From: a virus
Length of the DNA stretch: 51,853 nt
Strand: one strand, 5' to 3'
IMG/VR virus record: IMGVR_UViG_3300019360_000015
Coordinates: 1-51,853 of that record
Below are positions 2,203 through 34,498 of the stretch, piece by piece (position 1 is the first letter of the stretch; each line of letters starts with the position of its first letter). The position numbers and the translations under genes were made by a program. The notes under the pieces were generated by a model. That model was not told the origin of the DNA. It saw only the letters and a list, made by a program, of their open reading frames with translations, and made no database searches.

Positions 2203-2207
2203 TACCC

Positions 2208-2357
2208 CTATCCCTCCAGCTGCTCTATTTCCTCATCGGTCAGGTCTTCGCCGACCGGTAAGGTGTTCATATCATATTGAGTGGCGACACGGAAGCCGCC
2301 ACCCTCTACTTCTACGATGCAAATACTGGCATCGTCTGAGAACCTAATCTTGTTCAT
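2208..2357 (-). CDS. Hypothetical protein, 49 aa
   Basis: I chose ATG 2357 (MNKIRFSDDASICIVEVEGG) because AAGGAG lies 5 nt upstream; the upstream in-frame start at 2390 has none. The start overlaps the end of the preceding gene by 14 bp. The protein is short, beta-rich at first and acidic at the end (GEDLTDEEIEQLEG). Unknown function. Confidence 0.55.
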   Translation of the reverse strand: MNKIRFSDDASICIVEVEGGGFRVATQYDMNTLPVGEDLTDEEIEQLEG

Positions 2358-2733
2358 GTTTCTCCTTATACGCCTCAATGAATCCAACATGGGCGAACAC
2401 TTGGGATTTCTTCACACTCCCGTCCGCCTGATGCTCTTCCACAGAGCGACGAACAGAGAACGCATATAGAGGTGTTATCTCCCTCGCCCATAGTTGCCTC
2501 TCTAGTGCGCCCATTAAATATGGAGCGCCACCTATCATGGCTGAATCACAGCCAGAAAACCGAACAATATTAGTCAGGAGATGTGCGCGGTGCGCAATCT
2601 CTGGACCTGTCGGTTGCTCATCAAATGTGAGCAGCCTGGAGATCTTGGATTTTAGCTCGGTGGACGGTTCCACCACACCAGCTGTAACCTGATCTGGCGT
2701 GGCCACATGTTGTGTTAGATTTAGGATCTTCAT
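2344..2733 (-). CDS. Conserved 'NLTQH' family protein of unknown function
   Basis: The 129-residue protein opens MKILNLTQHVATPDQ, has a helical middle (FDEQPTGPEIAHRAHLLTNI), then MIGGAPYLMGALERQLW and ITPLYAFSVRRSVEE near residue 95, and ends with a short helical tail. I recall proteins with this order of motifs in phages and bacteria; the GGAPYLMGAL and LYAFS segments look like parts of a Rossmann-like alpha/beta fold. The biochemical function is unknown to me. The upstream sequence GAGGAATAT gives an acceptable ribosome site for the ATG at 2733. Confidence 0.6.
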   Translation of the reverse strand: MKILNLTQHVATPDQVTAGVVEPSTELKSKISRLLTFDEQPTGPEIAHRAHLLTNIVRFSGCDSAMIGGAPYLMGALERQLWAREITPLYAFSVRRSVEEHQADGSVKKSQVFAHVGFIEAYKEKHEQD

Positions 2734-2784
2734 ATATTCCTCTATTCCTCAAATTTCACGCGACTCCATTGCCGCGGTTGGTTG

Positions 2785-2870
2785 GTGGGGGGGGGCGCAC
2801 AGATCGCCACCCCTTGAGTTGGTTACGCCTATACCCTAACCGGAGATCGGTCAGAGTATGCGCCCCCACC
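2785..2870. repeat. GC-rich inverted repeat with G9 run
   Basis: Left arm at 2785-2800 (GGT, nine G, CGCA) is matched by TGCGCCCCCACC at 2859-2870, differing by four extra G in the left arm. The arms enclose about 58 nt. It overlaps the C-terminal end of the leftward gene at 2829-3092. No function can be assigned; it stands out because the rest of the genome is AT-rich. Confidence 0.5.
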
Positions 2871-3092
2871 TATCCGGGCGCACCGAGCCGCGTCGACGGC
2901 GCAATGCTTCAGCGCGCCGTCGACGGATCTGTGGATCACCCCACAAGCTCCGCGTACTGGCCCCTCGCATGTATGGGGGTCGTCCACGAAATTTTCTCTC
3001 TCCCGCTTTAGTTCGCAGGCCCAGCACTCTGGGAACTGCCCGTCAGCGGCATAGTGCTCGCATTCTCTGTAACTCGTATTGCACTTTCTCAT
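2829..3092 (-). CDS. Cysteine-rich hypothetical protein, 87 aa
   Basis: Starts at ATG 3092 with GGGGAG upstream. The N-terminal half is rich in cysteine and histidine (C4, C11, H13, then PECWAC near residue 21, HTC near 41), suggesting a small zinc-binding fold. The C-terminal third overlaps a strong DNA hairpin at 2891-2925 and part of a GC-rich inverted repeat, and may therefore not be an original part of the protein. The stop is TAG. It lies just downstream of the parS-like palindrome. Unknown function. Confidence 0.55.
   Translation of the reverse strand: MRKCNTSYRECEHYAADGQFPECWACELKRERENFVDDPHTCEGPVRGACGVIHRSVDGALKHCAVDAARCARIGGGAYSDRSPVRV
2891..2925. repeat. 12-bp perfect stem, 11-nt loop
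   Basis: CGTCGACGGCGC at 2891-2902 is exactly complementary to GCGCCGTCGACG at 2914-2925. There is no T-run on either side, so it is not a typical terminator. It sits inside the 3' part of the leftward 87-codon gene. Confidence 0.6.
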
Positions 3093-3106
3093 ATTTTCTC
3101 CCCATC

Positions 3107-3130
3107 AAGGTGTTCCACGTGGAACACCTT
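3107..3130. promoter_or_regulatory. parS: parS-like palindrome
   Basis: A 24-bp perfect palindrome lies 14 nt upstream of the leftward gene at 3092. Its 16-bp core at 3111-3126, TGTTCCACGTGGAACA, matches the bacterial chromosomal parS type bound by ParB (TGTTYCACGTGRAACA). No parA or parB gene is visible in the window, so any ParB would come from the host or lie elsewhere. On the + strand the palindrome is followed by TTCTTTT and could fold as a terminator, but no rightward gene needs one here. Confidence 0.5.
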
Positions 3131-3187
3131 TTCTTTTACTGAGATTCGATGGACTCAAATGCCTCTAAATCTAACAACATTAAAGAT

Positions 3188-3415
3188 CTAAAAATTGACT
3201 GACCGACGAGCTTTCCGGGCGGCCCTGCGCGATGGGAACCCCTCGGTCGGTTTCGGCTCGTACCGCGAGCGGAGGAAGCGAACTTTCGCTCCAGCGGCCT
3301 GGGCCACGAGGATCAATGCGGCCCACTCAGCAGCGAACTTTGCCTGCGCTTCAGCGGCTTTCTTCGCCTGGGCTTCAGCAAAAGTGGTTTGTACGTTCAA
3401 CTTAATGACAGTCAT
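3188..3415 (-). CDS. Basic, alanine-rich hypothetical protein, 75 aa
   Basis: I set the start at ATG 3415 (MTVIKLNVQTTF), which has AAGGAG 7 nt upstream; the longer frame from 3469 has no such site. The middle is a strongly helical repeat (AEAQAKKAAEAQAKFAAEW), followed by a hydrophobic stretch and a basic C-terminus (SRRAARKARRSVNF). It could bind nucleic acid, but I recognise no family. A hairpin (AAGATAGA / TCTATCTT) lies in the leader. Confidence 0.6.
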   Translation of the reverse strand: MTVIKLNVQTTFAEAQAKKAAEAQAKFAAEWAALILVAQAAGAKVRFLRSRYEPKPTEGFPSRRAARKARRSVNF

Positions 3416-3526
3416 AGTAATCTCCTTAAAAACCAAGGTTAATCTTTCCAACAAGATAGAATAGAGCATTTCTAATCTATCTTATTATCCCATCAAAAAA
3501 CAAAAAAGAGTTCCGATCTAATCTCC

Positions 3527-3568
3527 AAAATAAAAAATAGGGACGGGCCAGACGGGCCAACCCGTCCC
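3527..3568 (-). terminator. Rho-independent terminator, leftward
   Basis: On the minus strand GGGACGGG and CCCGTCCC form an 8-bp GC stem (3540-3568), followed by TATTTTTTATTTT (3527-3539). It would end transcripts of the genes at 3642-4810. A second perfect hairpin, CCTCAGCA / TGCTGAGG at 3575-3602, lies just before it. Confidence 0.8.
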
Positions 3569-3641
3569 AGAGCGCCTCAGCATCAATGCAAAAGTGCTGA
3601 GGGGAGATTGAGGCATATCAAATAATAGATTCAGCCGCGAG

Positions 3642-3878
3642 TCAAGCTAATTTTTTGCTTGCCCGACCGCAGGATGAGCAAAAGCTGGCGCCCGCGATCC
3701 TATGTTTCTGCCCACATCTTGGGCAGAACGGGGCGACTAAATTCAGCCCCGCAGTTGGGGCATTCTCTAGCGCAGCCCGCGATAATGGCTGCGTCGGCCC
3801 AGAATTTGATGGGCGAGTCAGGGGTTGAGTTGCCCCGAATCGCCCCACCCCACGGAAATTTTTTAAATTAAATATCAT
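3642..3878 (-). CDS. Zinc-ribbon protein, 78 aa
   Basis: The C-terminal 30 residues contain CPRCGQ, then 13 residues later CSSCGR, a typical four-cysteine zinc ribbon. The N-terminal half is low in complexity (repeated PxxxxPTQPLSR) and probably disordered. I favour ATG 3878 (MIFNLKNF) since AGAGG lies 10 nt upstream; ATG 3887 is too close to that site. It overlaps the end of the gene at 3868-4089. Likely a nucleic-acid or protein-binding adaptor; its target cannot be told. Confidence 0.6.
   Translation of the reverse strand: MIFNLKNFRGVGRFGATQPLTRPSNSGPTQPLSRAALENAPTAGLNLVAPFCPRCGQKHRIAGASFCSSCGRASKKLA
3717..3725 (+). repeat. TCTTGGGCA 9-mer, one of ten copies
   Basis: Exact copies on the + strand start at 3717, 7942, 8901, 16571, 23003, 25940 and 34376, and on the minus strand at 6108-6116, 40529-40537 and 51084-51092. 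They occur in coding and non-coding DNA and in several reading frames. The copy at 8901 and that at 6108 share a longer 14-mer, TTTCTTGGGCAAAA. At this base composition fewer than one copy is expected. Confidence 0.6.
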
Positions 3879-4089
3879 AATATCCATTCCTCTCAGCTAG
3901 CACCCTCACATATGCGAGGAAATGGTCGATCTGATATAATTTTTCAAATAATTCCGCTGCCCATTCATCCTGGGTCAGCCACAAATCATTCATGGTCTGC
4001 TCCAGGGCAACTAGAATTTCGGACAATCCCAGTCGTGAAATCCTTGAGGCCGCGAGAAGCGCATCCTCTTCTCTCTTTTTCATGTTCAT
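3868..4089 (-). CDS. Hypothetical helical protein, 73 aa
   Basis: Short helical protein (MNMKKREEDALLAASRISRLG...) ending RNGYYDI. AAGGTGA stands 9 nt before the ATG at 4089, one base after the stop of the preceding membrane-protein gene. No motif known to me. It overlaps the following zinc-ribbon gene. Confidence 0.6.
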   Translation of the reverse strand: MNMKKREEDALLAASRISRLGLSEILVALEQTMNDLWLTQDEWAAELFEKLYQIDHFLAYVRVLAERNGYYDI

Positions 4090-4090
4090 A

Positions 4091-4501
4091 TCATTTCACC
4101 TTTTTGCCCACGGTGAGGGCATATGCCATTGCAACTGCGTTCGCCGCGCAGAGAAGGATAAGCGGCAGAAACCGAATGTTCCCTTTAGCGAAGGTCATCG
4201 CAACTTCAAGTAGGATGGTAAATCCTACAGCTTTGAAAAATCCCATGGACTTCCAGCCACGTGAGCCGTACCACATGCGAGCATAGTCAAAAATGCTTAA
4301 TGATGATACGGTCAGCCCGCCCGCAACGGCGACCCACATATATGGGTTAGCCTGCGCCTCGCCGTGTGCCAGGCTATAGCTGATGACGGGCAGACTGGCT
4401 CCGACCACAGAGCCGACTCCCGCTGCCAAACGATTGCGATTGAATATCTGAATCTGCCTAAGCAGACCAGAATTCATGGAAGGTGTATTTTTCTTCGCCA
4501 T
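4091..4501 (-). CDS. Small multi-pass membrane protein
   Basis: The 136-residue product (from MAKKNTPSM) has about three to four hydrophobic segments: near residues 24-40 (AAGVGSVVGASLPVISYS), 52-68 (WVAVAGGLTVSSLSIF), 85-100 and 108-128 (FLPLILLCAANAVAMAYALT). I chose ATG 4501 because the GGAG ribosome site lies within the first codons of the longer version. The function is unknown; an early inner-membrane protein of this type could alter host transport or superinfection, which is a guess. Confidence 0.6.
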   Translation of the reverse strand: MAKKNTPSMNSGLLRQIQIFNRNRLAAGVGSVVGASLPVISYSLAHGEAQANPYMWVAVAGGLTVSSLSIFDYARMWYGSRGWKSMGFFKAVGFTILLEVAMTFAKGNIRFLPLILLCAANAVAMAYALTVGKKVK

Positions 4502-4529
4502 GATAATCTCCATTTATTTGTTAATTATT

Positions 4530-4581
4530 AGAGAGGCAAACAGTAGAGTATCCGGTACTGGCTACTGAGGTTTGCCTCTCT
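4530..4581. repeat. Long hairpin between two leftward genes
   Basis: AGAGAGGCAAAC at 4530-4541 pairs perfectly with GTTTGCCTCTCT at 4570-4581, and CAGTAG / CTACTG extend the stem inside. A T-run (AATTTTTT) follows only on the + strand, where no transcript is expected. On the minus strand it lies between the genes starting at 4810 and 4501 and may control processing or translation. Confidence 0.6.
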
Positions 4582-4594
4582 AATTTTTTGCCCC

Positions 4595-4810
4595 CTAGCG
4601 GGAGAATTTAAGAAATGTTGAGAACTGGCTGTCGCTGATCTTCTCGATTTGCCAGCCTATCGATCTTGCCATGTCAATGATGGCGTAGTCCATCTCGTAG
4701 TTATGGCTCGGATGCTCGATCAGGAAGTCAAGCCAATCCGCGTCTTGGCTATTGAGGATAAATACCTTGAATCCTTCAATCTTTATTGTCATTTGAAATT
4801 TCTTTGCCAT
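4595..4810 (-). CDS. Hypothetical protein, 71 aa
   Basis: Starts at ATG 4810 with AAGGAG 6 nt upstream. A short alpha/beta-looking protein (MTIKIEGFKVFIL, then DWLDFLIEHPSH, ending FSTFLKFSR). No family recognised. It is the first gene downstream of the palindrome array at 5056-5128, so it probably heads its own transcript. Between 4811 and 5055 I see no gene, only the 7-bp hairpin ATTATGG / CCATAAT near 4974-4992. Confidence 0.6.
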   Translation of the reverse strand: MAKKFQMTIKIEGFKVFILNSQDADWLDFLIEHPSHNYEMDYAIIDMARSIGWQIEKISDSQFSTFLKFSR

Positions 4811-5055
4811 TTAATCTCCTTATATTGATAGATAATAGGGGGCATCATGAATTATTAGCCTGAGTCCCTACTATCCATCATCTGCTCCGCCGTAGACACC
4901 ATGATAGGAAGCAACCCCTGTGCCACATTCCATTATTAAGTGTAAGTATATGGAAATAAAGGACTTAGCCCATTATGGCTTTACCATAATTAGATTAAAA
5001 TATGGGTATATTTTACCTAGTAGCGGTAAATTGTTGAAAATAAAGAACTTCCATC

Positions 5056-10896: not shown

Positions 10897-11841
10897 TTAT
10901 ACATAACTCAATTCAGCAACTTTGATCGCCCCGCTGGAATCCTTGATTTTAAATTTAAGTTTGGAGGCGCTTTCATCTAGCCACAGATTAATCTCGCTAT
11001 TTGCTAGCACTCCATCAGCCAACGCCACATCGGGTGTACGCAAAATCAATCCATCCGTAGCCCAACTGAGCGCACGACTGTGTGAGGAATCAGCATACGA
11101 GATGCTGCCGAGTGAATATCTATCACCGGCGGGATCTTCATACACTGCGCCAAAACCGACCTGACTGTTGCGGTAAAAAAGCAGCCCGGCTCCGTCAGAC
11201 TCAAACCCTACCTGACTGATGAAACTACCTGTCGAATCGTATGCGTCAAAGACCAGTGTCGGGCGATCAGGCAAATTCCAGGTTGCGTAATTTGCCCAGC
11301 TCCCTTGGGACCCCACATAACCCAGGTGATAGTTGACAATGCTGGGTGCATTCAAAGTCAGCAAACACGAGTATCCACCGATCAGAGGATGGCCGGACGC
11401 CCCCGACTCGATTAACTCGATTAGCGTTGGTCCATTGCTATTTCCCACCAGCGTGGGATTCCCAGTTGGGCTGTAATTGAAAAGACTAGCGCCGTCCACC
11501 ATTGATCCATTTGCGGGATAATAGGTCAGCTCCCCCGTCAATCCTGGATTAATTGTTCCACCTCCACCGCCTCCAGTTGCCCAAACAAGTCTATTTAATG
11601 AAAGATCATAAATAAGTCCTTGATTATTAAGCGGAACACCATCTATCTGAATTCCTAAAATCGCATTACAATTTTGAATTTGAGAAACACTTAAGGTCTC
11701 AACTCCAAGCTCTATATCACTGTCAGTTGCTGGAATCTCAGACAAGGAGTCAACAATACTCCAAACATCGCCATTTCTTAGTATAACTATCTGCCCAGCA
11801 TTTATTAAATCAATAATTTGATCACGCGTTATAATACTCAT
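10897..11841 (-). CDS. Fibre-like virion protein with shared N-terminal anchor
   Basis: The 314-residue protein has three parts. Residues 1-55 are the anchor module (IINAGQ-like start: LINAGQIVILRNGDVWSI, EIPATDSD, GVETLSVSQ) that is also found at the N-termini of the 1438-residue protein to its right and the protein at 25754. A Gly-rich hinge (near 90) and a beta-rich middle follow. The C-terminal 60 residues include LADGVLANSEINLWLDE and LKFKIKDSSGAIKVAELS, a segment also seen near residue 480 of the large protein. It is probably a second fibre or a cap that docks at the same site. Confidence 0.65.
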   Translation of the reverse strand: MSIITRDQIIDLINAGQIVILRNGDVWSIVDSLSEIPATDSDIELGVETLSVSQIQNCNAILGIQIDGVPLNNQGLIYDLSLNRLVWATGGGGGGTINPGLTGELTYYPANGSMVDGASLFNYSPTGNPTLVGNSNGPTLIELIESGASGHPLIGGYSCLLTLNAPSIVNYHLGYVGSQGSWANYATWNLPDRPTLVFDAYDSTGSFISQVGFESDGAGLLFYRNSQVGFGAVYEDPAGDRYSLGSISYADSSHSRALSWATDGLILRTPDVALADGVLANSEINLWLDESASKLKFKIKDSSGAIKVAELSYV

Positions 11842-12468: not shown

Positions 12469-15400
12469 TTAATTCGAGACTTCCCAAACCTCCATCGTAC
12501 TATTAGTCAGGAAGGTTGTTGAGTCTGAGTCAGAAGTCGCCTGTGCCCCCTGCACGCGTAAATTTCCAGAGCCATTACAAACAATGGTAGCTTCCCCCCA
12601 CATAGTGCCTCCAGCGCTATCGGTAGTACTTAGTACGAAAGCTATTGGAGTTGTTCCATTTATGGCCGTGAGTCGAGTAGAAGAGCCTGCGATAGCATCA
12701 CCATTAGATTGAGTATCAAACGCCCAACCAGCCCCTAGCGCAGCCGAGGCCGTGGCAGTTCCTGTTAGGGTAATTTTTGCTCCGCCTCCAGTTGATGATG
12801 TCATGTTGTAGAACACGCATACTCTGACCTTATATGTTCTACCTGTAACCAGGTTAACTGTTAGTCCGGTAATATCGGAGAAGGTTGTACTGCTGGTCTT
12901 GGTCAGATCAGACGTAGATCGTACCAGCCCGTAGTACTTAACCTGCCCATTGCCTCTAATCCTGAAAGTTTCGGTGAGCGCCGAGGCGTTATTGACGTTG
13001 GCGAACGCTATATCCGCCGTCCGCGTTGGATGGTTGGAGTCTGTCCACACAGACCGGATATAGGTAGCGTCTTGAGAATCAGCCGCGCCTGTTCCTGAAG
13101 TCTCCAAGCCAAACACTAAGTTACCACCCAAACCTGCCGCCGCCGTTCCATTGCTATTGACGTTGATTCGGAAAACAGTATGAGCTTGATTGGTATTGGA
13201 TGAATTGACATTGAATTGCCCTAAATCAGCCGAGGAGTTGGAGGCGCTGTCTACGCGAAGGCCGACGCGGGAAGTCGAGCCGCTAGCCGCATGTAGTTGG
13301 GCGCTTACCGTTCCAGATGCGGTATTGATGCCTACAGTTTGCCCGTTAGTCGAGCTTAACACTTGAATGGCCGGCGTTGAAAAGGCGTTATTCGTTCTAA
13401 AAGTGATCGTGCCAGTCGTCGCTGGGCCATTAAACACGACATCGGGAACTGAGGAATCGTATTGCAGGAAAAAGTTGCTGCTGCTGGGCGACGCTGTATT
13501 AACCCCGCCCCACATGGCCGGGTACAAAAACCCTCCACCGTTGTCGAAATACCCAAGCAACCACCTCCCATCGGTGCCACTTGCACCACCAGATGCATTC
13601 CCATTAATAAGTATACCGGCGCCAGCCGCACCGTTCGCCAGAGACCGATCAAACCGAGCAATTGGGTTCGTTGAAGTGGTCGCGTTGCTGAAGAGCAACG
13701 TCCCGGTACCCTTGGGAGAGAACGTCCCACCCGCATTGGTATCCCCTCCTGTAATACTCAACGTCGGCGAGTTACCTGTCGCCGCGTTCGCCACTGTGAA
13801 TTCATTCACCGCGCTGGCGGTCGCCGTAATTGCGAATATTTCATTACCATTGATGTCATCAATGCTAGTAATAAACTTTGGCCTAGTAGCTGCTAGAATC
13901 CCACTGTTAAATGTTTGTGTCGCAGTAAATGTCTCGGCTAAGTCCGTACCGGCAATCGTATAACTGGCGTTTTGAGGAGTCAGAACTCTAGTAGTTCCGG
14001 TTGTAAACCCATCTACCTCAAATCTTAATAGTTTAGTGGCATCTACGCTTCCTTTCACCAGAGCCGTTGTTTGATCATCAAAAGGCGGATTAAAGTCTAT
14101 TGATACTCCATTTTCTCTACACCGAAACTTATTTCCTGTAGAGTTATACCAAATATCACCGTTTGATAATGCTGAAGGATCTCCGGAGACGGAGCCAACT
14201 CTTAATGCTGCGCTAGTTGTAGAAGCCGTTGTGTGAACTCGTCCTCCGAATTGCGAAATGGCAGATCCTTCAGTCTTGATGGCGTAGATATTTGTCGCGC
14301 CAGCCGCCGTTGTCGCTATATCTTGAATCCACAGACCATAAGCGTTAGTCAGCGCACCATTTGTTCTATAAACATCTCCAAACAATGCTGCGGAATTGGT
14401 GACAGTACCAGACGATTTATCGTTTTCATTAATTGCAGCTACACCAAGCATATTAACTACATTGCCGGAATTTCCAGCAGATGCGTATGATGCGACGCCA
14501 TAAACAGAAGTAATATTAGCAGTTCCAGACTCCCAGTTGGCGCTTCCTTGAATCTGCGCCCCTGTAATCCTTTCAGTTGTACCACCAATTTGCTCACCCC
14601 AGACAGATGTAAACGTGCCCCAAAGACTATCATTAGCGCTATTACTGACATTAGTAAAAGCCGCCGCTGCGCTGACTAAAGCTGAATTCGTAGAATTCTT
14701 AATGGCGACCTGTAATCCACTATACTTAAAAGAATCAATCTGTGTAGCTGTGAAATTACTCTCAGGAACTCCTATAAATACAAAAGGATCTTCCAGAGTT
14801 TGTCCAACAGGATCATTGAATGTGGCTTGTCCAGCTTGTACCCATAACGCATACTTGTTCGTCAATATTGCATTTGATCCGCTTAGTGGAGCATTGGTTA
14901 TGGCTACTGTCGCTGCTGTAGTGATTGTATCTGAGCTAGTAAACGCATATGTAGGCGCGCTAAATACATATTCTCTTTGTTGAGGAAAGGTTGAGCCTCC
15001 TGCTGTAAACTGTCGAACTACTGACGCTCCTGATCCATTACCGCCAATATAAATTCCTGGAGCTTCGATGTCAGCGGCAAGCGCTGTATCAGCAGGTGTT
15101 GTTAGCGAAAACCATGGTGCGCTTCCTGAAGTTCTGGGAGATGGAGCAAACGTAACCACCCCACCCGATGTTGAATTTGAACCAGGAATTTCTCCTAATA
15201 CATTACCTAAAGCTTCATAAAGAATTCTACCAGTCGAGCCTGAAGTTATCGTAGTTGTTCCAATATTTAATACATTACCACCGCTTAATGAGAGGGGAAT
15301 TTCACCAAGTTTCAGAGCGCTAGTACTATATTTTACCTTGACTTTGATTTTGTCAGCGCTCTCGTCCAGATAGAACGAGAAAGCAGAATTAGAGAGATCG

Positions 15401-16785
15401 CCATCGGCAGGTGCGGAATCAGGCGCAGTGGCGAAAAGCCTATCACCAAGCTCGACCTTGCCTAATCCAGTTCTGATAGCCCAGTTATTAGTTCCGCCAG
15501 CAATGTCCTCCACTTTTAAGCCATATGCGTTTACTAATGTGCCTGCAACATAGGTCAAACCGGCTCGAATAGCCATAAAATCATTGACGTTTGAGAATAC
15601 CTGACCGGCGCAGTTAAGACTGATCATGGTATCTACCATGCCAGAGAATGCTACTGATTGAAAATCTCCACCAGTAACTTGTGATGCGGAATCGCTTCCA
15701 GCCCATAACGTAATCCCTTGTAACCCAGACAAATTTTGATTAGCTCCGCCTGACCCATTTTGAACTAGAAAAGTTAATCCAGAGACGCTCGTTCCACTCT
15801 GTGTGTTCTCTGGTTTCACGTTTAGCAGTACATTAATACCATAAAACTGAGACAAATTCGTTATAGGATCAGCATCAACTGCTACTATAATGCCATTAGC
15901 GAAGTTGGTTGAAAAATCTCCATTTATACTCTCTTGTATGTCAAGGAGCGCAGCCCCAGAAGGGTATGGATAGATAGAACCACCATTGATTGCGCTCTGC
16001 GCTCCAATCGCGGCGTGTTTTGTGGCTCGAAAATTACCATCTAAGGCTAGTAAATCATTTCCATTGTCCCAAGAGAATTCAAGGAGATCATCAATAGTAG
16101 TTCCGTCCGTCGGATAGTATGCGATCTTACCGGCTAGCCCGTCATTAATTGTCCCTGATCCTCCTCCAGTTTGCCACGAAGGGATACCAGAAGATACTGT
16201 GAGAACTTGCGCATTGGTCCCAATTCCTAATCGGGCAAAATTCCCACTAGAATTCCTGTAATAAATATCTCCGGTAGCATCTGATCCTAGATTAATTATA
16301 GGACTTGTTAATGTTTTGTTTGTGAGAGTTTGTGAACCAGTCAGAGTAGCAACGTCTGATCCAATATCTAAAGTGGGGGTTCCTAATACCCCGTCTCCAT
16401 TTGTAACTGTAATCCTATTTGATGTTCCGACTATTGTCCTAGATATAGTAGTATTCAGAGCAGTTCTAACCAATAACCCATTTGAACCAGGATCAGTTAA
16501 ACCACCTCCACCACTACCAGTTTGCCATTCCATCCTATTAGTAATTGCATTATATGCTAGGCTTTTTCCGTCTTGGGCAGGACCGTCTATTTGCTTTCCC
16601 ATTAATGCATTGGCGTTTAAAAGTTGGCTTATAGACAAAGTTTCTACGCCTTCTTCAATTTCAGCATCAGATGTGGGAATCTCGCCCAACGAATCAATAA
16701 TCGTCCAAATGTCGCCGTTTCTTAGGAGAACAGTTTGGCCATTTGATATTAATAATTCAATTTGAGATTTTGTCAGTACAGCCAT
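12469..16785 (-). CDS. Large tail-fibre-like protein, 1438 aa
   Basis: Probable receptor-binding fibre. Residues 1-55 are the anchor module shared with two other proteins (LISNGQTVLLRNGDIWTI, GEIPTSDAE, GVETLSISQ). There follow a Gly-rich hinge, a TLTGSQTLTNKTLTSP segment of the kind common in fibre shafts, and a long array of beta-rich repeats with the recurring pattern N-A-Y-G-L/K-x-x-D-I (near residues 425, 650 and 860). The C-terminus (TFLTNSTMEVWEVSN) is likely the exposed tip. The gene is on the strand opposite to the main structural operon and has its own consensus promoter. Long open frames on the other strand inside it are shadows. Confidence 0.75.
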   Translation of the reverse strand: MAVLTKSQIELLISNGQTVLLRNGDIWTIIDSLGEIPTSDAEIEEGVETLSISQLLNANALMGKQIDGPAQDGKSLAYNAITNRMEWQTGSGGGGLTDPGSNGLLVRTALNTTISRTIVGTSNRITVTNGDGVLGTPTLDIGSDVATLTGSQTLTNKTLTSPIINLGSDATGDIYYRNSSGNFARLGIGTNAQVLTVSSGIPSWQTGGGSGTINDGLAGKIAYYPTDGTTIDDLLEFSWDNGNDLLALDGNFRATKHAAIGAQSAINGGSIYPYPSGAALLDIQESINGDFSTNFANGIIVAVDADPITNLSQFYGINVLLNVKPENTQSGTSVSGLTFLVQNGSGGANQNLSGLQGITLWAGSDSASQVTGGDFQSVAFSGMVDTMISLNCAGQVFSNVNDFMAIRAGLTYVAGTLVNAYGLKVEDIAGGTNNWAIRTGLGKVELGDRLFATAPDSAPADGDLSNSAFSFYLDESADKIKVKVKYSTSALKLGEIPLSLSGGNVLNIGTTTITSGSTGRILYEALGNVLGEIPGSNSTSGGVVTFAPSPRTSGSAPWFSLTTPADTALAADIEAPGIYIGGNGSGASVVRQFTAGGSTFPQQREYVFSAPTYAFTSSDTITTAATVAITNAPLSGSNAILTNKYALWVQAGQATFNDPVGQTLEDPFVFIGVPESNFTATQIDSFKYSGLQVAIKNSTNSALVSAAAAFTNVSNSANDSLWGTFTSVWGEQIGGTTERITGAQIQGSANWESGTANITSVYGVASYASAGNSGNVVNMLGVAAINENDKSSGTVTNSAALFGDVYRTNGALTNAYGLWIQDIATTAAGATNIYAIKTEGSAISQFGGRVHTTASTTSAALRVGSVSGDPSALSNGDIWYNSTGNKFRCRENGVSIDFNPPFDDQTTALVKGSVDATKLLRFEVDGFTTGTTRVLTPQNASYTIAGTDLAETFTATQTFNSGILAATRPKFITSIDDINGNEIFAITATASAVNEFTVANAATGNSPTLSITGGDTNAGGTFSPKGTGTLLFSNATTSTNPIARFDRSLANGAAGAGILINGNASGGASGTDGRWLLGYFDNGGGFLYPAMWGGVNTASPSSSNFFLQYDSSVPDVVFNGPATTGTITFRTNNAFSTPAIQVLSSTNGQTVGINTASGTVSAQLHAASGSTSRVGLRVDSASNSSADLGQFNVNSSNTNQAHTVFRINVNSNGTAAAGLGGNLVFGLETSGTGAADSQDATYIRSVWTDSNHPTRTADIAFANVNNASALTETFRIRGNGQVKYYGLVRSTSDLTKTSSTTFSDITGLTVNLVTGRTYKVRVCVFYNMTSSTGGGAKITLTGTATASAALGAGWAFDTQSNGDAIAGSSTRLTAINGTTPIAFVLSTTDSAGGTMWGEATIVCNGSGNLRVQGAQATSDSDSTTFLTNSTMEVWEVSN

Positions 16786-16826
16786 GGTTTGTCCCCGTAT
16801 TCTGGATTGATTTTTATGAAAAACTA

Positions 16827-16855
16827 ATTATATCAAAAATCCTCCATTAAGTCAA
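16827..16855 (-). promoter_or_regulatory. Leftward promoter of the fibre gene
   Basis: Minus strand -35 TTGACT (16850-16855), 17-bp spacer, -10 TATAAT (16827-16832). The leader is about 40 nt; a clear Shine-Dalgarno is lacking (CGGGGACAAACC before ATG 16785). Confidence 0.8.
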
Positions 16856-16882
16856 TTGTTTATCAGTACTTGAAAATAGGAC

Positions 16883-16911
16883 TTGACATTTAAATCTTTA
16901 TCAGTTAGAAT
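16883..16911 (+). promoter_or_regulatory. Promoter of structured RNA A
   Basis: -35 TTGACA (16883-16888), 17-bp spacer, -10 TAGAAT (16906-16911). Transcription should begin near 16918. The next rightward gene starts 1.57 kb away, so the direct product is a non-coding RNA. Confidence 0.8.
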
Positions 16912-16917
16912 AAAGAC

Positions 16918-17405
16918 TCGAACATAAAGAATTGCTCTTTTCCAATTTGGAAAATATCTTCAACGTTGTAAGGGCTGAGGTTGCCGTACAAGAAGTCGAG
17001 TTCGTCGGAACCAAAAAAATCCTGTACTCTCTATGTCTGCAACAAACTTCCAAATAAGCTAGAACCAATTAAGAATTGAGTTTCAGAAAAGTTTTAGACG
17101 AAAGTTAGGGAAAAATGCATAGACTGAAGAGAATTTGACCCTCCTCCTTGCAAGCAACGTTGTAAAAATAAATATATTCTAATTGCAAGATTACACCATG
17201 AATTAGTAAGTTAGGGTATCGGGCCGTTACCGAGAGAGCAAGTAGGTAATAAACCGCGCAAGGGAACCGGCAAGTAAACGACCGAAGGGGCCTATACTTA
17301 AAATCTTTTGAGTATGTCTTTTTTGGAAAAAATTTTTACTTTCGACCAGAGGGCTGGTCAAAGTGTCACTTCTCTCAGCTAACCTACCTTAAACAAATTA
17401 TTTAT
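16918..17405 (+). ncRNA. Large structured RNA candidate A
   Basis: About 490 nt without a credible ORF, behind a consensus promoter. Visible stems: TTTTCCA / TGGAAAA near 16940; GGTTGCCG pairing with CGGAACC (16979-17013); a closing stem GTAT-GGCC / GGCC-ATAC around 17217-17296 with GTTACC / GGTAAT inside; and ACTTT-GACCA / TGGTC-AAAGT (17338-17363). The 3' end reads GTGTCACTT...TTAAACAAATTATTTATTAT. The 5' GCTCTTTT-hairpin-TGAGGTTG block, the ACGACCGAAGGGG block and the 3' end recur in RNA B. Size and neighbours resemble the ornate phage RNAs GOLLD and ROOL, but I cannot match it to either. Confidence 0.65.
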
Positions 17406-17740
17406 TATCATAATTTACAATAAAAAAGTTATCTAATTAACAATTCTCCTTTTTAGATGATTTTAGGGAATGATTAGGAGGTAGATGATCTAGATATTAT
17501 GGGCAATAATATAACTAATTTTAATTCTTGATTGTAACATGGGATTTAAATAGTGTAAATAATAGGTTTATAGATCATAATAAGGACTAGATAATAAACA
17601 AAATCTAATTAGAATTAAGATTCAAAATTAGAATTATTGATTGCTAAATAATGAATAGGAGCGTCTAGTTGACATTTAAGGACAGAAATGCTTAAAAACA
17701 AGGGATGGAAAAAGAGATGATTTTGTGAGATGATACGCTC
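17406..17740. other. AT-rich spacer between the two RNAs
   Basis: No gene, strong hairpin or terminator is seen. A TTGACA at 17669-17674 lacks a good -10 box at the right distance. Confidence 0.5.
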
Positions 17741-17769
17741 TTGACAGATTAATTCTTCTGTGCTAAGAT
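17741..17769 (+). promoter_or_regulatory. Promoter of structured RNA B
   Basis: -35 TTGACA (17741-17746), 17-bp spacer, -10 TAAGAT (17764-17769); expected start near 17776. Confidence 0.8.
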
Positions 17770-17775
17770 ATTCTT

Positions 17776-18250
17776 TGATAAATAATGAACTTATTTATTA
17801 TGCTCTTTTAGATCATTAAGCTGGATAGAAAATGATCACTCCGTTTGGATGTGAGGTTGTCCGATTATTAAAACGAACCTGGGAAGTCATACACCCCAGA
17901 TAGTAATTTTAATAGCTTAAGCAAAATTTCCAAGTTAATCTTTGTCATTTCCTACTTAGGATAAAAAAGATTCGGGCCGATAGGCGGCATCAAACTCCTT
18001 CATACTATTATATGAAAGCCGAAAAAGTGTTGTAACCGGGAAGCTTAAGTACCTCTTTAGTGGGACGGAGTATAAATATTTGACCGTGCGCCGAACAGCT
18101 TTAGGCGTATACACAGGCCACTAAACAATAGGACTAGTTAAAAACGACCGACGGGGGGTCAGCTTTCGTTTTGTTTTTACTAATAGACGGTGTATGTCTA
18201 TTAGTGTCCACTCCCTCCGAAAAGTCACCTTTACCTTAATTATTTATTAT
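17776..18250 (+). ncRNA. Large structured RNA candidate B, paralogue of A
   Basis: About 475 nt without a gene. Stems: ATAAATAA / TTATTTAT (17779-17799); GATCATT / AATGATC (17811-17837); AGGTT / AACCT (17854-17880); CTTCATA / TATGAAAG (17998-18018); GCGCC / GGCGT (18089-18109); TGACC / GGTCA closing a domain (18082-18161); and a perfect 10-bp stem ACTAATAGAC / GTCTATTAGT (18180-18206). It shares with RNA A the order GCTCTTTT, hairpin, TGAGGTTG-stem, AAACGACCGA-GGGG, terminal hairpin, GTGTC and a 3' end ACCTTAA...ATTATTTATTAT. No ORF or known RNA family was recognised. Confidence 0.65.
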
Positions 18251-18429
18251 ATAAATTGCCTGATAAGGTAGTAGGATCAAGAATTTAGATAAGATAAAAA
18301 ATCTATTTTAAAAAATCTACTTTTAGGATCTACTTAAAAAAGTTGGGCAAAAATAAGCATTAAAACTAATCTGATCTAAGATCCAACTTAATAATTCCTC
18401 TCCTACCATTAAATAATACCAAATAAATA

Positions 18430-18457
18430 TTGACTTTTCCGGAAAAATGAATAATAA
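18430..18457 (+). promoter_or_regulatory. Promoter with palindromic spacer
   Basis: -35 TTGACT (18430-18435), 16-bp spacer, -10 TAATAA (18452-18457). The spacer holds the 12-bp palindrome TTTTCCGGAAAA (18435-18446), a possible operator. The stretch 18251-18429 has no gene; it contains CTACTTT-like repeats near 18318 and 18332. Confidence 0.6.
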
Positions 18458-18481
18458 TGCCCAGTGAAAGGATATTGCTAA

Positions 18482-18979
18482 ATGTCTGCAAATAAAGGAT
18501 TTAATAGAAAACATTGGCGTGGCGGCCAGGATAGGCATTTATATCCTATTCCGCCAAAAGATGGAAGGATTTTTTATATTGCTATCCACTTGCCTAGAAA
18601 TCCAGGTAATGGAGTATTTTATTGGGCTGAGGTAAGCCAGGTTGGAAACCTTTTGGCCGAATTTGGATGTAGAGTCTCCTCAATCACTAATAACAGGATG
18701 GAAGTTCTGGGTTTAATAGATATAATTGAAAAACATAAAGAGTGTAATAATTTTGTTGTTTATTCCAGTAGTCAATATTTGGTTAATGGCGTAAATGCTT
18801 GGATGTTTAAATGGAAAAAGAAAAATTTTTCCAAAATTAAAAATCCCGATTTATGGTCAAAACTTTATTCCGCTCTTCTTGGCAAGAAAATCACAATGCG
18901 CTGGGTTAAATCTCTTAGTGGTAATAAATGGAATGATTATACTTATATAAAAGCTATGGAAATGTATTACGATTCTTGA
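18482..18979 (+). CDS. RNase H-fold protein lacking catalytic residues
   Basis: The 165 residues align along their length with RNase HI: RNPGNG (39-44), SITNNRMEVLGLI (68-79), VVYSSSQYLVNGVNAWMFKWKK (92-113), KNPDLWSKL and MRWVKSLSGNKWNDYTY (139-155). Of the DEDD active site only the Glu (E74 in TNNRME) remains. The first Asp is Ala34, the Asp of Y-T-D-S-Q-Y is Ser96, the His loop is Leu145 and the last Asp is Tyr155. It should therefore not cleave RNA-DNA hybrids but may still bind them. It lies just downstream of the two structured RNAs and has AAAGGA upstream. A binding or capping role for hybrids or the RNAs is inference. Confidence 0.75.
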   Translation: MSANKGFNRKHWRGGQDRHLYPIPPKDGRIFYIAIHLPRNPGNGVFYWAEVSQVGNLLAEFGCRVSSITNNRMEVLGLIDIIEKHKECNNFVVYSSSQYLVNGVNAWMFKWKKKNFSKIKNPDLWSKLYSALLGKKITMRWVKSLSGNKWNDYTYIKAMEMYYDS

Positions 18980-19012
18980 GCAAGAAAGTTAAAGCCCTTT
19001 AGCCTTTGTATC

Positions 19013-19432
19013 TCATGGCCAAGATTCCTCACTATTAACCCCATCCCTAGTTGTATAGATGATTTCTTCGATTCCGGAAAGTTGAATGGCAATTCTACAG
19101 ATTTCACAAGGACAAGCTAACGCCAAAGAGCCATTTTTATTGAATCTGATTATAAAGATTTTTGACGCATTTTCAATAGGTTTAATTTTCCTATTCCTGA
19201 TAATTCTAGCTAATGCCGCAATTTCAGAATGCAAGAATATCCTACTTCTATTCTTGGTCATAGCCGCTATCCTTGCCTGAAGACTGTGGGTTTTTGAATA
19301 AGAATTATAACCAGTTGCAATAATTCTATATTTTGAATCCAAGACATAGGATACAAGACAATGCCTTTTGTCTTTCATGGTCAAAAAGTCTTTCCTTGCC
19401 TTTTCAATCAGCTTTTTTATTTTCTTATTCAT
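19013..19432 (-). CDS. Cytidine/dCMP deaminase-like protein
   Basis: A 139-residue member of the zinc-dependent nucleoside deaminase fold: LHSEIAAL (H68, catalytic E70) and PCEIC (C109, C112) supply the usual zinc ligands, with alpha/beta elements IIATGYNS and KIFIIRFNKNG between. Phage dCMP deaminases feed dUMP into dTTP synthesis, but this short protein lacks a clear substrate signature, so free cytidine, deoxycytidylate or nucleic acid are all possible. The start at 19432 lies 6 nt behind a -10 box (TTGACA, 16 bp, TATTCT), implying a leaderless mRNA. Expressed divergently from the gene at 19503. Confidence 0.75.
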   Translation of the reverse strand: MNKKIKKLIEKARKDFLTMKDKRHCLVSYVLDSKYRIIATGYNSYSKTHSLQARIAAMTKNRSRIFLHSEIAALARIIRNRKIKPIENASKIFIIRFNKNGSLALACPCEICRIAIQLSGIEEIIYTTRDGVNSEESWP

Positions 19433-23004: not shown

Positions 23005-25533
23005 TTGGGCAACGAAAGATATATAAGAAATCTCATTTATCCGCCTCCTGACAATAGATCAGTTATGGAGAAATTGTCCGATCTTTCATCCGAGGAAAGA
23101 GCGGCAATTATAGATAAGATAGTTGCGGAGAAGTTTAATGGTAACTACGAGGCTATAAAATATGCTTGGGATTTAATTGCGCGTCCTTCACAACTTATTA
23201 GTATTATTCCTGATTCAAATTGGAGAATTGCTTGTTGGTGCGCGGGACGCGGGATTGGAAAAGGCGCTTCATTAAAAACTAGAATTCCTACTACTTTTGG
23301 CTGGACAACTATGGGTCAAATAAAGGTAGGAGATCAGGTTTTTGATGAAAATGGAAATGTTTGTAATGTTACAGCCGTTACAGATGAGTACATGCCAAAA
23401 AAAGCATATAGATTTGAGTTTTCAGATGGAACTTTTATTGATGTTTGTGATCAACATCAATGGATAAGCTGGGATCATTTAGCTAGAAAGTCTTATCTTA
23501 AAAAAGATAGAATAAACCACTTAGAAATCAATAATTTTAAATTCCCAGATGATTGGGTAAACTGGTCTAGGGTATATAGAAAGAGTGTAAATAAGCCGAA
23601 AATAAGAATTTCTGAAGAGATTGTAAATAGTTTTTATTATGGAAAACGTAATGATTTGAATCACTGTATTCCTTTATGCAAACCATTAAAGCTAGATGAA
23701 AAAGATTTACCTATTCCTTCTTATTTACTAGGATTGTGGCTTGGGGATGGAAATTCTAATGCCCCATGTATAACATGTCATATTGATGATTTTCAATTTT
23801 ATAGTTCTTATCTATCTAATCTAGGATTAAAACTTTCTAAATTTAGACCAGATTTTAGGAGTCCTAATACTGGAAAGTTTACTATATATGAAGTATTTAA
23901 GTTGAAAATACTAGATTTATATAAAAATAAACATGTACCAGATTTGTATCTTAGGGGATCAGAAAAACAAAGACTGGAGCTAGTACAAGGATTATTGGAT
24001 AGTGATGGGAATATATGTAAAGAAGGCAGAATAGAATTTTATAATACAAATAAGTTAATTTTTGATGCTGCGTATGAACTTTTAGTTTCTTTAGGACAAA
24101 AACCGATAATATCTACAAGGATTGGTAAATTAAATGGGAAGAGTTATAAATTATGCTATCGGTTAGGTTTTCGACCGAATAGATTTGATTTATTTAAGTT
24201 GCCTAGAAAATTAAAAATACTTAAAGATAGCTTGAAATACTCTCAACAACTTAGAAATCATCACAGAATGTTGATCTCTTATAAAGAAATTTCTCCTCTA
24301 TTAATGAAATGTATACAAGTTGATTCAAAAAATTCTATGTATTTGATTGGAGATGGGATGATTCCTACTCATAATACCTTTTTAGCTAGTCAAGCTATTA
24401 GACAGGCTGTGGAAAGTGGCGGGCATAGAGAGTTGCTTTTAGTTGCTCCGACCAGTAATGATGTCATATCTACTAATATAAATGGTCCTAGTGGTATTCT
24501 TGCTGTTTGTCCTCCGTGGAATAAGCCTGAATGGAGTCCTACCTATAAACAATTAGTTTGGCCAAATGGGGCTAGGATGATTTATAGATCGGCGGATGAG
24601 CCAGAACGTATTCGAGGTGCGAACATAAGTTTTGCCGTTTTGGATGAGCTTGCTGCGGCAAACTATGGTAAAGAGGCATTTGATATGACGATGTTTGCTC
24701 TAAGATTAGGAAATCCAAAATGTATTATAACTACTACTCCAAAACCTCTAGCTTATTTACTTGAAATTTTTTCCCGCACTGACTGTTATGTGATCACTGG
24801 CTCAAGTTTAGAAAATGCCGCAAATATAGATTTGTCTGTATTCTTGGAGCAATATCAAGGAACAAGATTAGGCAGACAAGAGATTTATGGAGAGCTGCTT
24901 TTTGATAATCCTGACAGTTTGTGGAATTATCAGACTATTGAAAAATCCAGGCTTAAGAGGTCAGACAACGTTCCTGAGCTTATTCATATAGTGGTTGCAG
25001 TTGATCCTGCGGTTTCGGTTTCTAAAACTTCCGCCGAGACTGGTATATCTGTTGTCGGATATGGAATAGACGGCCATGTTTATATTCTTTACGCTGATGG
25101 ATTTAAGATGCAGCCCTTAGATTGGGCTAAAAAAGTTATTGAACTTTATGATTATTATAGGGCGGATAGGATCGTAGTTGAAGTAAATCAAGGTGGGGAT
25201 TTGGTAAAATCAAATTTACAACAAGTAAGACCTCTTCTGCCTGTTTATTCTGTTCACGCAACCAGAAAAAAAGCGGTTAGGGCAGAGCCGGTTGCAAGTC
25301 TATTTGAACTGGGGAAAGTTCATTTAGTAGGGTATTTCCCAAAACTTGAAGAACAACTTTTGAACTTCCCTCCGAGCGACTCAAAAACGGTTATTGATTG
25401 CATGGAAAGCTGTGTTTGGGGGGTAACGGCTTTAATGGAATTGACTTCCGGAACTCAAAATTATGCCCCATCTGTTGGTGGTCAAAGAAATAAAGTTTTA
25501 GATTATTTGAAAGATGTTTCTCACATCTATTAA
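23005..25533 (+). CDS. terL: Terminase large subunit with intein
   Basis: ATP-driven DNA-packaging motor and nuclease. The 842-residue precursor splices to 472 residues. N-extein ends CAGRGIGKG; C-extein begins TFLAS, so the joined Walker A reads GRGIGKGT. Walker B is FAVLDELAAA, the coupling motif IITTTPKP, and the RNase H-like nuclease has VVAVDPAVS, DRIVVEVNQGGD and a final acidic Asp in DCMESCVWG. The only start in frame after the preceding TAA is TTG 23005, with no Shine-Dalgarno; ATG 23065 would give a protein 20 residues shorter. TTG lies within a copy of the repeated word TCTTGGGCA, so the start is uncertain. Confidence 0.93.
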   Translation: MGNERYIRNLIYPPPDNRSVMEKLSDLSSEERAAIIDKIVAEKFNGNYEAIKYAWDLIARPSQLISIIPDSNWRIACWCAGRGIGKGASLKTRIPTTFGWTTMGQIKVGDQVFDENGNVCNVTAVTDEYMPKKAYRFEFSDGTFIDVCDQHQWISWDHLARKSYLKKDRINHLEINNFKFPDDWVNWSRVYRKSVNKPKIRISEEIVNSFYYGKRNDLNHCIPLCKPLKLDEKDLPIPSYLLGLWLGDGNSNAPCITCHIDDFQFYSSYLSNLGLKLSKFRPDFRSPNTGKFTIYEVFKLKILDLYKNKHVPDLYLRGSEKQRLELVQGLLDSDGNICKEGRIEFYNTNKLIFDAAYELLVSLGQKPIISTRIGKLNGKSYKLCYRLGFRPNRFDLFKLPRKLKILKDSLKYSQQLRNHHRMLISYKEISPLLMKCIQVDSKNSMYLIGDGMIPTHNTFLASQAIRQAVESGGHRELLLVAPTSNDVISTNINGPSGILAVCPPWNKPEWSPTYKQLVWPNGARMIYRSADEPERIRGANISFAVLDELAAANYGKEAFDMTMFALRLGNPKCIITTTPKPLAYLLEIFSRTDCYVITGSSLENAANIDLSVFLEQYQGTRLGRQEIYGELLFDNPDSLWNYQTIEKSRLKRSDNVPELIHIVVAVDPAVSVSKTSAETGISVVGYGIDGHVYILYADGFKMQPLDWAKKVIELYDYYRADRIVVEVNQGGDLVKSNLQQVRPLLPVYSVHATRKKAVRAEPVASLFELGKVHLVGYFPKLEEQLLNFPPSDSKTVIDCMESCVWGVTALMELTSGTQNYAPSVGGQRNKVLDYLKDVSHIY
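23266..24375 (+). mobile_element. Intein of class 3 type with LAGLIDADG endonuclease
   Basis: A 370-residue in-frame insert between Gly and Thr of the terminase Walker A loop. It begins with Ala (ASLKTRIPTTFGWTTMG) instead of Cys or Ser and ends PTHN before Thr. It carries the Trp-Cys-Thr triplet of class 3 inteins: block B HQW (W66), block F KCIQV (C349) and block G T368 with N370. In that class the block F cysteine makes the first attack. The centre has two LAGLIDADG helices, LLGLWLGDG (154-162) and LVQGLLDSDG (239-248), each with an acidic residue, so the homing endonuclease looks active. Confidence 0.88.
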
Positions 25534-25602: not shown

Positions 25603-25725
25603 ATGTATTCAAAATCGGGAAAATTAAGCAAAACTAAAGGCCGTGTCTATAGAAAGTCCAAGTGGAAAAAAGACGACACTCCTAAAAATAAAAAAACTAA
25701 TAGTATTTATAGAAGTTCAAAGTAA
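25603..25725 (+). CDS. Small highly basic protein, 40 aa
   Basis: MYSKSGKLSKTKGRVYRKSK... has 15 Lys/Arg in 40 residues and ends IYRSSK. It follows directly on a consensus promoter, with only a weak ribosome site (AAGG). A longer frame overlapping it in another phase (25643 onward) lacks a start signal. The charge suggests binding to DNA or RNA, for example during packaging. Too short for family assignment. Confidence 0.5.
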   Translation: MYSKSGKLSKTKGRVYRKSKWKKDDTPKNKKTNSIYRSSK

Positions 25726-25753
25726 TTTCTATAAGTTCTTTTTGGAGGATTCC

Positions 25754-26242
25754 ATGGGTATTTTAACAAAGGCAGAAATTACTGCTCTAGTAAACGCGGG
25801 ACAGAAAGTAATTCTTCGCAATGGTAATATTTTTATATTAGTGGATACAAGCGCAGAAATCCCTGCTAGTGATCAGGCGGTTATAGATGGCGCTACTGAA
25901 ATCTTTATTGGCGGCCCGATTAATCTGCTACAAGATACTTCTTGGGCAGAAGGTGTGGATATTGTTTTAGGAACTACTACAGGTAGTAAGATTGGGACTG
26001 GCGCTACACAGAAGTTAGGGTTTTATGGGGCAACCCCGGTTGTAAGGCCGGTTGGAGCTGAGCAAGCTTCTATTACGGATAATTCCGCAGGCTCAGCAGG
26101 GGCTTCGGTTGAAACCGCAGGCGCATCTTATGATGCTACTACGAGAACAAATCTTAATAACGCAGTAGCCACTCTTACTCAGAGAATTAATGCTTTAAGA
26201 AGCGCATTGGTTAGTGTAGGAATTATTAAAGGATCAAGTTAA
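25754..26242 (+). CDS. Virion fibre or decoration protein with shared anchor
   Basis: I chose ATG 25754 with GGAGG 5-6 nt upstream. Residues 1-50 are the anchor module of the two leftward fibre proteins (LVNAGQKVILRNGNIFIL, AEIPASDQ, GATEIFIG). The C-terminal part contains LGTTTGSKIGTGATQKLGFY, GATPVV and a helical end (LNNAVATLTQRINALRSALV), a combination I know from phage head-fibre or minor virion proteins. Placed between terminase and portal, it is probably a head fibre or decoration. Length 162 residues. Confidence 0.65.
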   Translation: MGILTKAEITALVNAGQKVILRNGNIFILVDTSAEIPASDQAVIDGATEIFIGGPINLLQDTSWAEGVDIVLGTTTGSKIGTGATQKLGFYGATPVVRPVGAEQASITDNSAGSAGASVETAGASYDATTRTNLNNAVATLTQRINALRSALVSVGIIKGSS

Positions 26243-31872: not shown

Positions 31873-32580
31873 ATGAAAGAAAATTTAGATAGTTCTTTGA
31901 AAAAATGTAAGAAGTGTGGTGAGTCCAAACCTGTTGATTGTTTTCGACTCTCTCTTAGTAAGAATAAACAGTACTCTTATCCAAGAAATACTTGTAAGGA
32001 TTGTGAAGCTTTAAGGCTTAAACAATACGAACTAGAAAATAAGGAAAAGAGAGCTATGCAGCATAAGCAGTATAGAGAAAGAAATATAGATAAAGTTCTT
32101 GCTAGAGAAAAGGAGTATAGAGAAGCTAACAAAGAAAAGGTTACTAATGCATCTAAAAAGTGGAGGCAAGAAAATCCAGAAAAGGTTAAAGAAAGATGGA
32201 AAGCTGAATATAAGAAGAATAGAGAGTACTATCTTTTAAAAGAAAAGCAAAGATGGATAAACAAGAAGGAGGAACTTCAAGCCAAAAATAAAGCTTGGCG
32301 TGAAGCCAATCCAGAAAAAGTTAAAGAGTACCGTAGAAAGTACAGATTAAATATAAAGGATTCTTTAACTCTTGATTATTGTGAGTTTCTTTTGACAAAG
32401 CCTTGTACTTATTGTGGCGGAAAATCTGAGGTTTTAGATCACATTGTTCCTCTTTCAAAAGGTGGTACACACACTTTCGACAATCTAACTCCTTCTTGTG
32501 AGAAATGCAACAATGAAAAGAAGGCGAAAGATTTAGAAACATTTTTAAAAGTAAAAGAAGTTGAAATAAAGGCCCTGTAA
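31873..32580 (+). CDS. Free-standing HNH homing endonuclease
   Basis: 235 residues. An N-terminal zinc finger (CKKCGE...CKDC, 12-43) is followed by a long basic helical region with repeats of the kind E-A-N-x-E-K-V (EKYREANKEKV, ENPEKVKERW, EANPEKVKEYR), probably DNA-contacting, and a C-terminal HNH nuclease: CTYCGG, LDHIVPLSKGGTHTFDNLTPSC, EKCNNEKKAKD. The gene lies between the capsid and connector genes with its own promoter and GGAAG ribosome site. Such genes spread by cutting phages that lack them. A hairpin (CAAGC / GCTTG, 32587-32613) follows. Confidence 0.85.
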   Translation: MKENLDSSLKKCKKCGESKPVDCFRLSLSKNKQYSYPRNTCKDCEALRLKQYELENKEKRAMQHKQYRERNIDKVLAREKEYREANKEKVTNASKKWRQENPEKVKERWKAEYKKNREYYLLKEKQRWINKKEELQAKNKAWREANPEKVKEYRRKYRLNIKDSLTLDYCEFLLTKPCTYCGGKSEVLDHIVPLSKGGTHTFDNLTPSCEKCNNEKKAKDLETFLKVKEVEIKAL

Positions 32581-33520: not shown

Positions 33521-34498
33521 ATGCGATTGGTAGATTTAACAGGTCAAAAATTTGGGAAGCTCTTGGTAAAGTCTTTATGCGATGAAAGACATTGCGGTAA
33601 GGCGAAATTTCTTTGTGAATGTGAGTGTGGAGCACAGGTTGAGGTTCTATCATATGCTTTGGTGAGTGGAAATACTAAAAGTTGTGGATGTAATAGAGCT
33701 AATAATTTAGTTGGTCAAAGATTTTCAAAGCTTTTAGTAATAAATAGAGCTAGTAATAATGGCCCTTATGTTATGTGGAATGTTGTCTGTGATTGTGGAA
33801 ATTCCTTAAAAGTTAGAGCAGACAGTTTAGCTGATCGTAGTACGCAGTCTTGTGGATGTTTACATAAAAGCATTGTAACCGCAAATGTTGTTGGAAAAAG
33901 ATTTGGTAAATTATACGTATTAGAGGCCACTAATGAAAGAAAGAACGGCTCTGTTGTCTACTTAGTAATATGTGATTGTGGAAATATAAAGACGATTTCT
34001 GCGGCTGGACTATTGAGTAGCAGAATTAAAAGTTGTGGATGCTTAATAAAAGATGTTACTATAAAAAGATGTGCTAAACCACTAGGTGAAGCCGCATTTA
34101 ATGCTGTTTATGGCCAGTATAAAAAAAGTGCTAATAAGAGAAGCTTGAAATTTGATTTAACCCGTATAGATGCGAAAAATATGTTTCAATCCAAGTGTTT
34201 TTATTGTGGAGCCGCTCCTTCTAGGATTCGTAAATCTGGAGATAGTACAGGTGAATTTAAGTTCAGTGGTATAGATAGAATAGATAGTTCAAAAGGATAT
34301 ACTTTAGATAATTGTGTCCCATGCTGTAGTGATTGTAATTATGCTAAGCGTATAAATACTGTTGATGAGTTTAAATCTTGGGCAAAGAGGTTATACGATA
34401 ACTTATATTCAAAGGAAGCATCAAAGGAGCCTGGATTTAAAAACAGTCTTGACTATAGAAATTTTGATTGGTTAGCTGAAACAGTAATTTATCTTTAG
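33521..34498 (+). CDS. HNH endonuclease with three zinc repeats
   Basis: 325 residues. The N-terminal half has three repeats with the pattern G-x-x-F-x-K-L ... C-x-C(D)-C-G ... S-C-G-C (DLTGQKFGKLLV, LVGQRFSKLLV, VVGKRFGKLYV, each closing in SCGC), likely zinc-bound DNA-reading modules. The C-terminal half is an HNH nuclease: CFYCGAAP, GIDRIDSSKGYTLDNCVPCC, CNYAKRINTVDEF. Two bases separate it from the preceding stop and no ribosome site is seen, so it may be translated poorly or by coupling. Paralogue of the gene at 36295. Confidence 0.85.
   Translation: MRLVDLTGQKFGKLLVKSLCDERHCGKAKFLCECECGAQVEVLSYALVSGNTKSCGCNRANNLVGQRFSKLLVINRASNNGPYVMWNVVCDCGNSLKVRADSLADRSTQSCGCLHKSIVTANVVGKRFGKLYVLEATNERKNGSVVYLVICDCGNIKTISAAGLLSSRIKSCGCLIKDVTIKRCAKPLGEAAFNAVYGQYKKSANKRSLKFDLTRIDAKNMFQSKCFYCGAAPSRIRKSGDSTGEFKFSGIDRIDSSKGYTLDNCVPCCSDCNYAKRINTVDEFKSWAKRLYDNLYSKEASKEPGFKNSLDYRNFDWLAETVIYL

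Follow-up and report, generated by a model that had tools for sequence, protein, structure and literature searches.

A phage RNase HI-like protein lacking its catalytic residues, a candidate non-cutting binder of RNA/DNA hybrids

Inactive RNase H folds and the phage gene

In E. coli RNase HI (RnhA), DEDD carboxylates hold metal ions, and the single substitution H124A is enough to reduce activity substantially (PMC8900815). Incomplete active sites have been documented among RNase H-like proteins (Majorek et al., 2014; PMC3985635), and domains without a site persist in, e.g., CENP-B and the connection (tether) domain of retroviral reverse transcriptases (PMC3985635; PMC9040795; PMC11363490), the latter being the classic inactive RNase H case (PMC9040795; PMC11363490). 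A catalytically dead RNase H1 has found use as a hybrid probe, according to work cited in PMC10639055. The phage protein described here resembles the connection domain in having a predicted RNase H fold that has lost its active site, but that domain is part of a polyprotein in eukaryotic viruses, whereas the phage protein is free-standing and retains the sequence motifs of its family.

The protein (165 aa) is encoded by ORF 18482–18979 on the + strand of a 51,853-base IMG/VR virus record, analyzed over its whole length (the window), whose portal, head, terminase, and tape-measure genes mark it as a tailed phage. A Shine-Dalgarno-like GAAAGGA lies 5′ of the ATG (+ strand, approximately 18467–18473), and a promoter-like TTGACT-17-AATAAT, identified by consensus match only, lies directly 5′ of the gene (18430–18458, + strand). 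The product matched Pfam RNase_H (PF00075; E 1.6e-14, 54.7 bits vs. a cut-off of 25.8) and PHROG 531 “Rnase H” (8.9e-23), and phmmer aligned it with E. coli RNase HI chains at ∼4e-13 and with variants of that enzyme down to 4e-14. It shares about 30% identity with bacterial and phage RNase HI of these families, E. coli RnhA included, along with the motifs NPG, TNNRME, SQY, W...W, KNxDLW, and WVK and residue N130. Judged by these sequence matches, the protein is a member of the RNase HI family, as the original prediction had held on the strength of its scaffold motifs, all of which are present. It differs from RNase HI equivalogs in scoring 78.8 bits against the NCBIfam “ribonuclease HI” model NF001236, far below the cut-off of 160. 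A single-sequence AlphaFold2 model was of too low confidence to be relied on (pLDDT 42), although its strand and helix order from residue 62 on fits the RNase H fold.

Downstream of the gene, a dCMP deaminase is encoded on the opposite strand; genes for a VWA protein and for nucleotide metabolism also follow, as does one for a helix-turn-helix protein that is small-terminase-like by position and whose PHROG is labelled RNase E. Several features elsewhere in the window were recorded as separate observations. The large terminase (23005–25533) carries an intein in its Walker A motif (GRGIGK / GASLKTRIPTTFGW...MIPTHN / TFLAS), which lacks a Cys at position 1, contains one in “MKCIQVDS,” and is followed by Thr at +1, features reminiscent of class 3 inteins. 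The proteins at 10897–11841, 12469–16785, and 25643–26242 have in common an N-terminal module of ∼50 aa with the pattern L...QI..LI..GQ.V.LRNGD.W.I.DS..EIP..D..IE.G, which probably attaches tail or fibre proteins. Three free-standing HNH-like proteins among the structural genes (31873–32580, 33521–34498, and 36295–37161) are probably homing endonucleases; in two of the three, an LTG..FG.L.V module is repeated. Positions 1–5000 carry minus-strand genes and have a G+C content of 0.48–0.52, vs. 0.31–0.38 in much of the remainder; this segment is possibly a recent acquisition.

Catalytic positions, scaffold, and origin

Alignments to both E. coli RNase HI and relatives from phages, with the register anchored on NPG, TNNRME, SQY, KN.DLW, and WVK..SG...N, placed A34, S96, L145, and Y155 of the phage protein at E. 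coli D10, D70, H124, and D134, in agreement with the four replacements originally named. The serine in place of catalytic Asp70 is codon 96 (18767–18769, + strand). E48 corresponds to E74, the sole catalytic residue retained, and the series D10-E48-D70-H124-D134 thus reads A-E-S-L-Y. In place of the metal-binding DEDD carboxylates of a functional RNase HI the protein has A34, E74, S96, and Y155, and the loop histidine, present in 168 of 168 homologues, is L145. G11 and G21, which lie beside the active site, are lost too, a point against a maintained pseudoenzyme. In some MAFFT runs D27 (of “PKDG”) was aligned as the D10 equivalent. This candidate was rejected because a relative on contig L037, “PPPPKDSYIIYTDGSALENPG,” carries both a D27-like D and, eight positions after K, the catalytic D; at that spacing D27 is not D10, and A34 occupies the D10 position. 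A register based on phage RisingSun would put D10 on L37 instead, and, since residues 29–40 (RIFYIAIHLPRN) hold no acid, the first strand is acid-free in either register. Continued nuclease activity from a relocated active site is scarcely credible: E74 is retained, and the RNase H-like superfamily offers examples of migrated acids in Tex and YqgF (PMC3985635), but the first and fourth core strands are both acid-free and H124 is gone as well.

DEDHD was intact in all 168 homologues examined, which are about 25–40% identical to the phage protein and were taken from IMG/VR (the best 80 of 443 confirmed), GTDB genomes (80 of 586), and named phages (eight loci); with none of the five residues lost in any of them, the loss in the phage protein exceeds chance. 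Homologues were collected with patterns that specify TNN-ME and partly W...W; as these patterns require none of D10, D70, H124, and D134, they are blind to the loss. A DNA pattern of TNNRME-like codons with a non-GNN codon before SQY yielded no other inactive homologue, returning 35 stretches, of which only two had RNase H matches, both DEDHD. Single-sequence scans with the RNase H-like protein, the portal, and the major head protein found no close relatives in viral contigs, the major head protein had no match among named phages, and the RNase H-like gene had no relative in 80 large-terminase-related contigs plus the named phages. The protein is thus a singleton in the collections searched, which may omit records very close to that of the window. 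These collections yielded no sibling sharing its catalytic loss, so long-standing maintenance of the inactive form is no more than a possibility, and the open papers searched described no free-standing phage RNase HI with such a loss. Free-standing RNase HI proteins without catalysis but with the binding scaffold appear rare (0 of the 168 homologues).

To compare catalytic and other conserved positions, we used 98 non-redundant homologues, in which 25 columns were at least 95% conserved, five of them catalytic. The phage protein retains 18 of the 20 non-catalytic positions vs. 1 of the 5 catalytic ones (Fisher p 0.0055, a descriptive value because the protein was chosen for its loss). With the columns of the collection patterns left out, 11 of 13 non-catalytic positions are kept and 0 of 4 catalytic ones (p 0.0063). 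In each homologue all five catalytic positions and at least 18 of the 20 others are kept; by this sequence comparison the phage protein equals its active relatives as a scaffold at the conserved non-catalytic positions. Its codon usage lies within the range of the phage's other genes, in that frame only.

These results bear on a rival explanation, relaxed selection, under which RNase HI activity is no longer needed because the host enzyme suffices and early decay has struck the active-site residues first. All relatives are intact, the protein is a singleton, and among the 143 sequences of the tree it has the longest tip (1.81, against 1.23 for the next longest and a median of 0.23). That tip makes faster overall change clear, and it would also be expected under relaxed selection, so that it counts against a maintained pseudoenzyme. 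The losses, however, cluster on catalytic positions rather than being spread, and a frame of 165 codons has stayed open, with phage-like codon usage, despite great divergence. We regard relaxed selection as possible but rather unlikely; a constrained pseudoenzyme fits better than general decay, and the pattern is the one that retention of the scaffold, not decay at random, would be expected to leave, in support of the earlier claim. That claim had been set against intact homologues combined with loss scattered here: the former were found, whereas the losses are not spread along its length. The proposed check whether the same four positions are always lost among homologues came out negative, all 168 being intact.

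The N-terminal tail provides a link to a known enzyme. Codons 1–28 (18482–18565, + strand) encode a basic tail, MSANKGFNRKHWRGG...PPKDG, which aligns as MSANKGFNRKHW...PIPPKDG with MTWHKGKNKKHW...YPPPKPG in the RisingSun enzyme, an RNase HI from an Erwinia phage (score 58; 0 of 5000 shuffles as high), the two having KGxNxKHW in common upstream of a PPK. The tail on the 229-kb contig L037 is a weaker match (0.0046), and a pattern search with the tail gave five matches, of which RisingSun alone is an RNase H. In their cores the RNase HI proteins of RisingSun and Joad (L005 and L063) and of L037 are similar to the phage protein, but they keep DEDHD, which it does not. Compared with RnhA-type enzymes, the phage protein has both the replaced D10, D70, D134, and H124 and the added basic tail. 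Because its tail matches the intact RNase HI of RisingSun, an Erwinia jumbo phage, the phage protein is, on sequence grounds, a descendant of an active RNase HI of jumbo-phage type. Its neighbor in the tree is L077 (support 0.87) and not RisingSun; since the relatives are intact whichever of these is nearest, activity was lost on this phage's own lineage.

The upstream gap and its putative RNAs

A 1.7-kb gap (16786–18481) separates the RNase H-like gene from an upstream gene in the opposite, diverging direction. The cumulative GC-skew minimum falls within it, at 17066, and the gap is a possible replication origin. Two regions of higher G+C, both on the + strand, may be real small RNAs: putative RNA 1 (16918–17400), behind a promoter-like TTGACA-17-TAGAAT at 16883–16911, and putative RNA 2 (17777–18230), behind TTGACA-17-TAAGAT at 17741–17769 and with a terminator-like element at 18150–18178. 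Promoter-like matches numbered 17 against 9.5 expected, so single matches are weak evidence. The gap also contains AT-rich tandem repeats at 18295–18322. The 15-mer AAACGACCGA[AC]GGGG is common to both blocks (17276–17290 and 18142–18156; 14/15 identical), and a search with its pattern gave four unrelated places.

The original prediction called these RNAs structured and proposed that the protein binds them. Rfam gave no match at the gathering threshold in the whole window, and sub-threshold matches in 16750–19020 were implausible ones only (E 1–2.5). Folding was no better than that of shuffles (z −1.46 for RNA 1 and −0.71 for RNA 2), with no 150-base window at a z below −3, and blastn against phages returned short, chance-like matches only. 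We thus find nothing to sustain the description as structured. Specific binding of the two RNAs, whether as an RNA-protein unit or at an R-loop-primed replication origin, is very improbable. The adjacency of gene and putative RNAs, the promoter-like site ahead of each block, the GC-skew minimum inside the gap, and the shared 15-mer speak for it. Against it, no relevant Rfam match appeared even at E 5, the folds equal shuffles, no related RNA turned up beside any of the homologues or in the searched collections, nor is the neighborhood shared by any relative, the gene has a promoter-like site of its own and is preceded by a gap of 250–300 nt, and the skew minimum coincides with the switch in gene direction. 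That the pseudoenzyme was selected to bind and protect hybrids of these adjacent non-coding transcripts at an origin, acting as a natural R-loop stabilizer, is likewise very doubtful.

A candidate non-cutting hybrid binder

We consider the best reading to be an RNase HI pseudoenzyme that binds nucleic acid, specifically RNA/DNA hybrids, and does not cut them, a proposal about evenly poised between right and wrong. It is favored because the catalytic residues are absent, the hybrid-contact positions are kept, and dead RNase H1 serves as a probe. The positions kept include N16, T43, N44, N45, Y73, W81, W85, and N100 (E. coli numbering), which we take to be among the hybrid-touching residues of RNase H1; E48, the sole acid kept, presumably also contacts a 2′-OH there. 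The contacts are attributed to the structures of RNase H1 with hybrid reported by Nowotny and Yang (Nowotny and colleagues, 2005 and 2007). The protein is basic, with a pI of 9.8 and a core net charge of +10 (homologue mean 3.8, sd 4.3; 8 of 169 as high).

In the proposed course of events, an active RNase HI of jumbo-phage type would have lost metal binding and cleavage and been kept as a nucleic-acid binder. Because D10, D70, D134, and H124 are absent, no cleavage is expected; without D10 and D70 neither catalytic metal would be held. The hybrid (or A-form RNA) could still be gripped in a groove formed by N40, T69–N71, Y99, W107, W111, and N121, with help from the basic N-terminal tail. In the cell, such a protein might shield or mark hybrids, e.g., replication primers or R-loops, or compete with the host RNase HI.

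An alternative that we judge improbable is that the fold was kept to contact another protein or to serve a structural purpose, and not to bind nucleic acid. The inactive connection domain of reverse transcriptases is a precedent, and nucleic-acid binding by the phage protein is itself a prediction, but the kept residues include those on the hybrid-facing side of RNase HI, and the protein has a basic charge. For the hybrid-binding pseudoenzyme, the likeness to dead RNase H1 lies in the expected behavior, a hybrid-binding surface without catalysis; D210N is one engineered change, whereas the phage protein carries four natural ones. D210N labels R-loops poorly in live cells (PMC10639055), which counts against the hybrid-binding reading.

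That reading rests on one sequence and could about equally well prove right or wrong; a single sequence is a lead, not a system. If the protein does bind hybrids without cutting them, nature would have its own version of the engineered dead RNase H1 with which R-loops are mapped, and protection of hybrids, rather than their removal, would be suggested for some phages.
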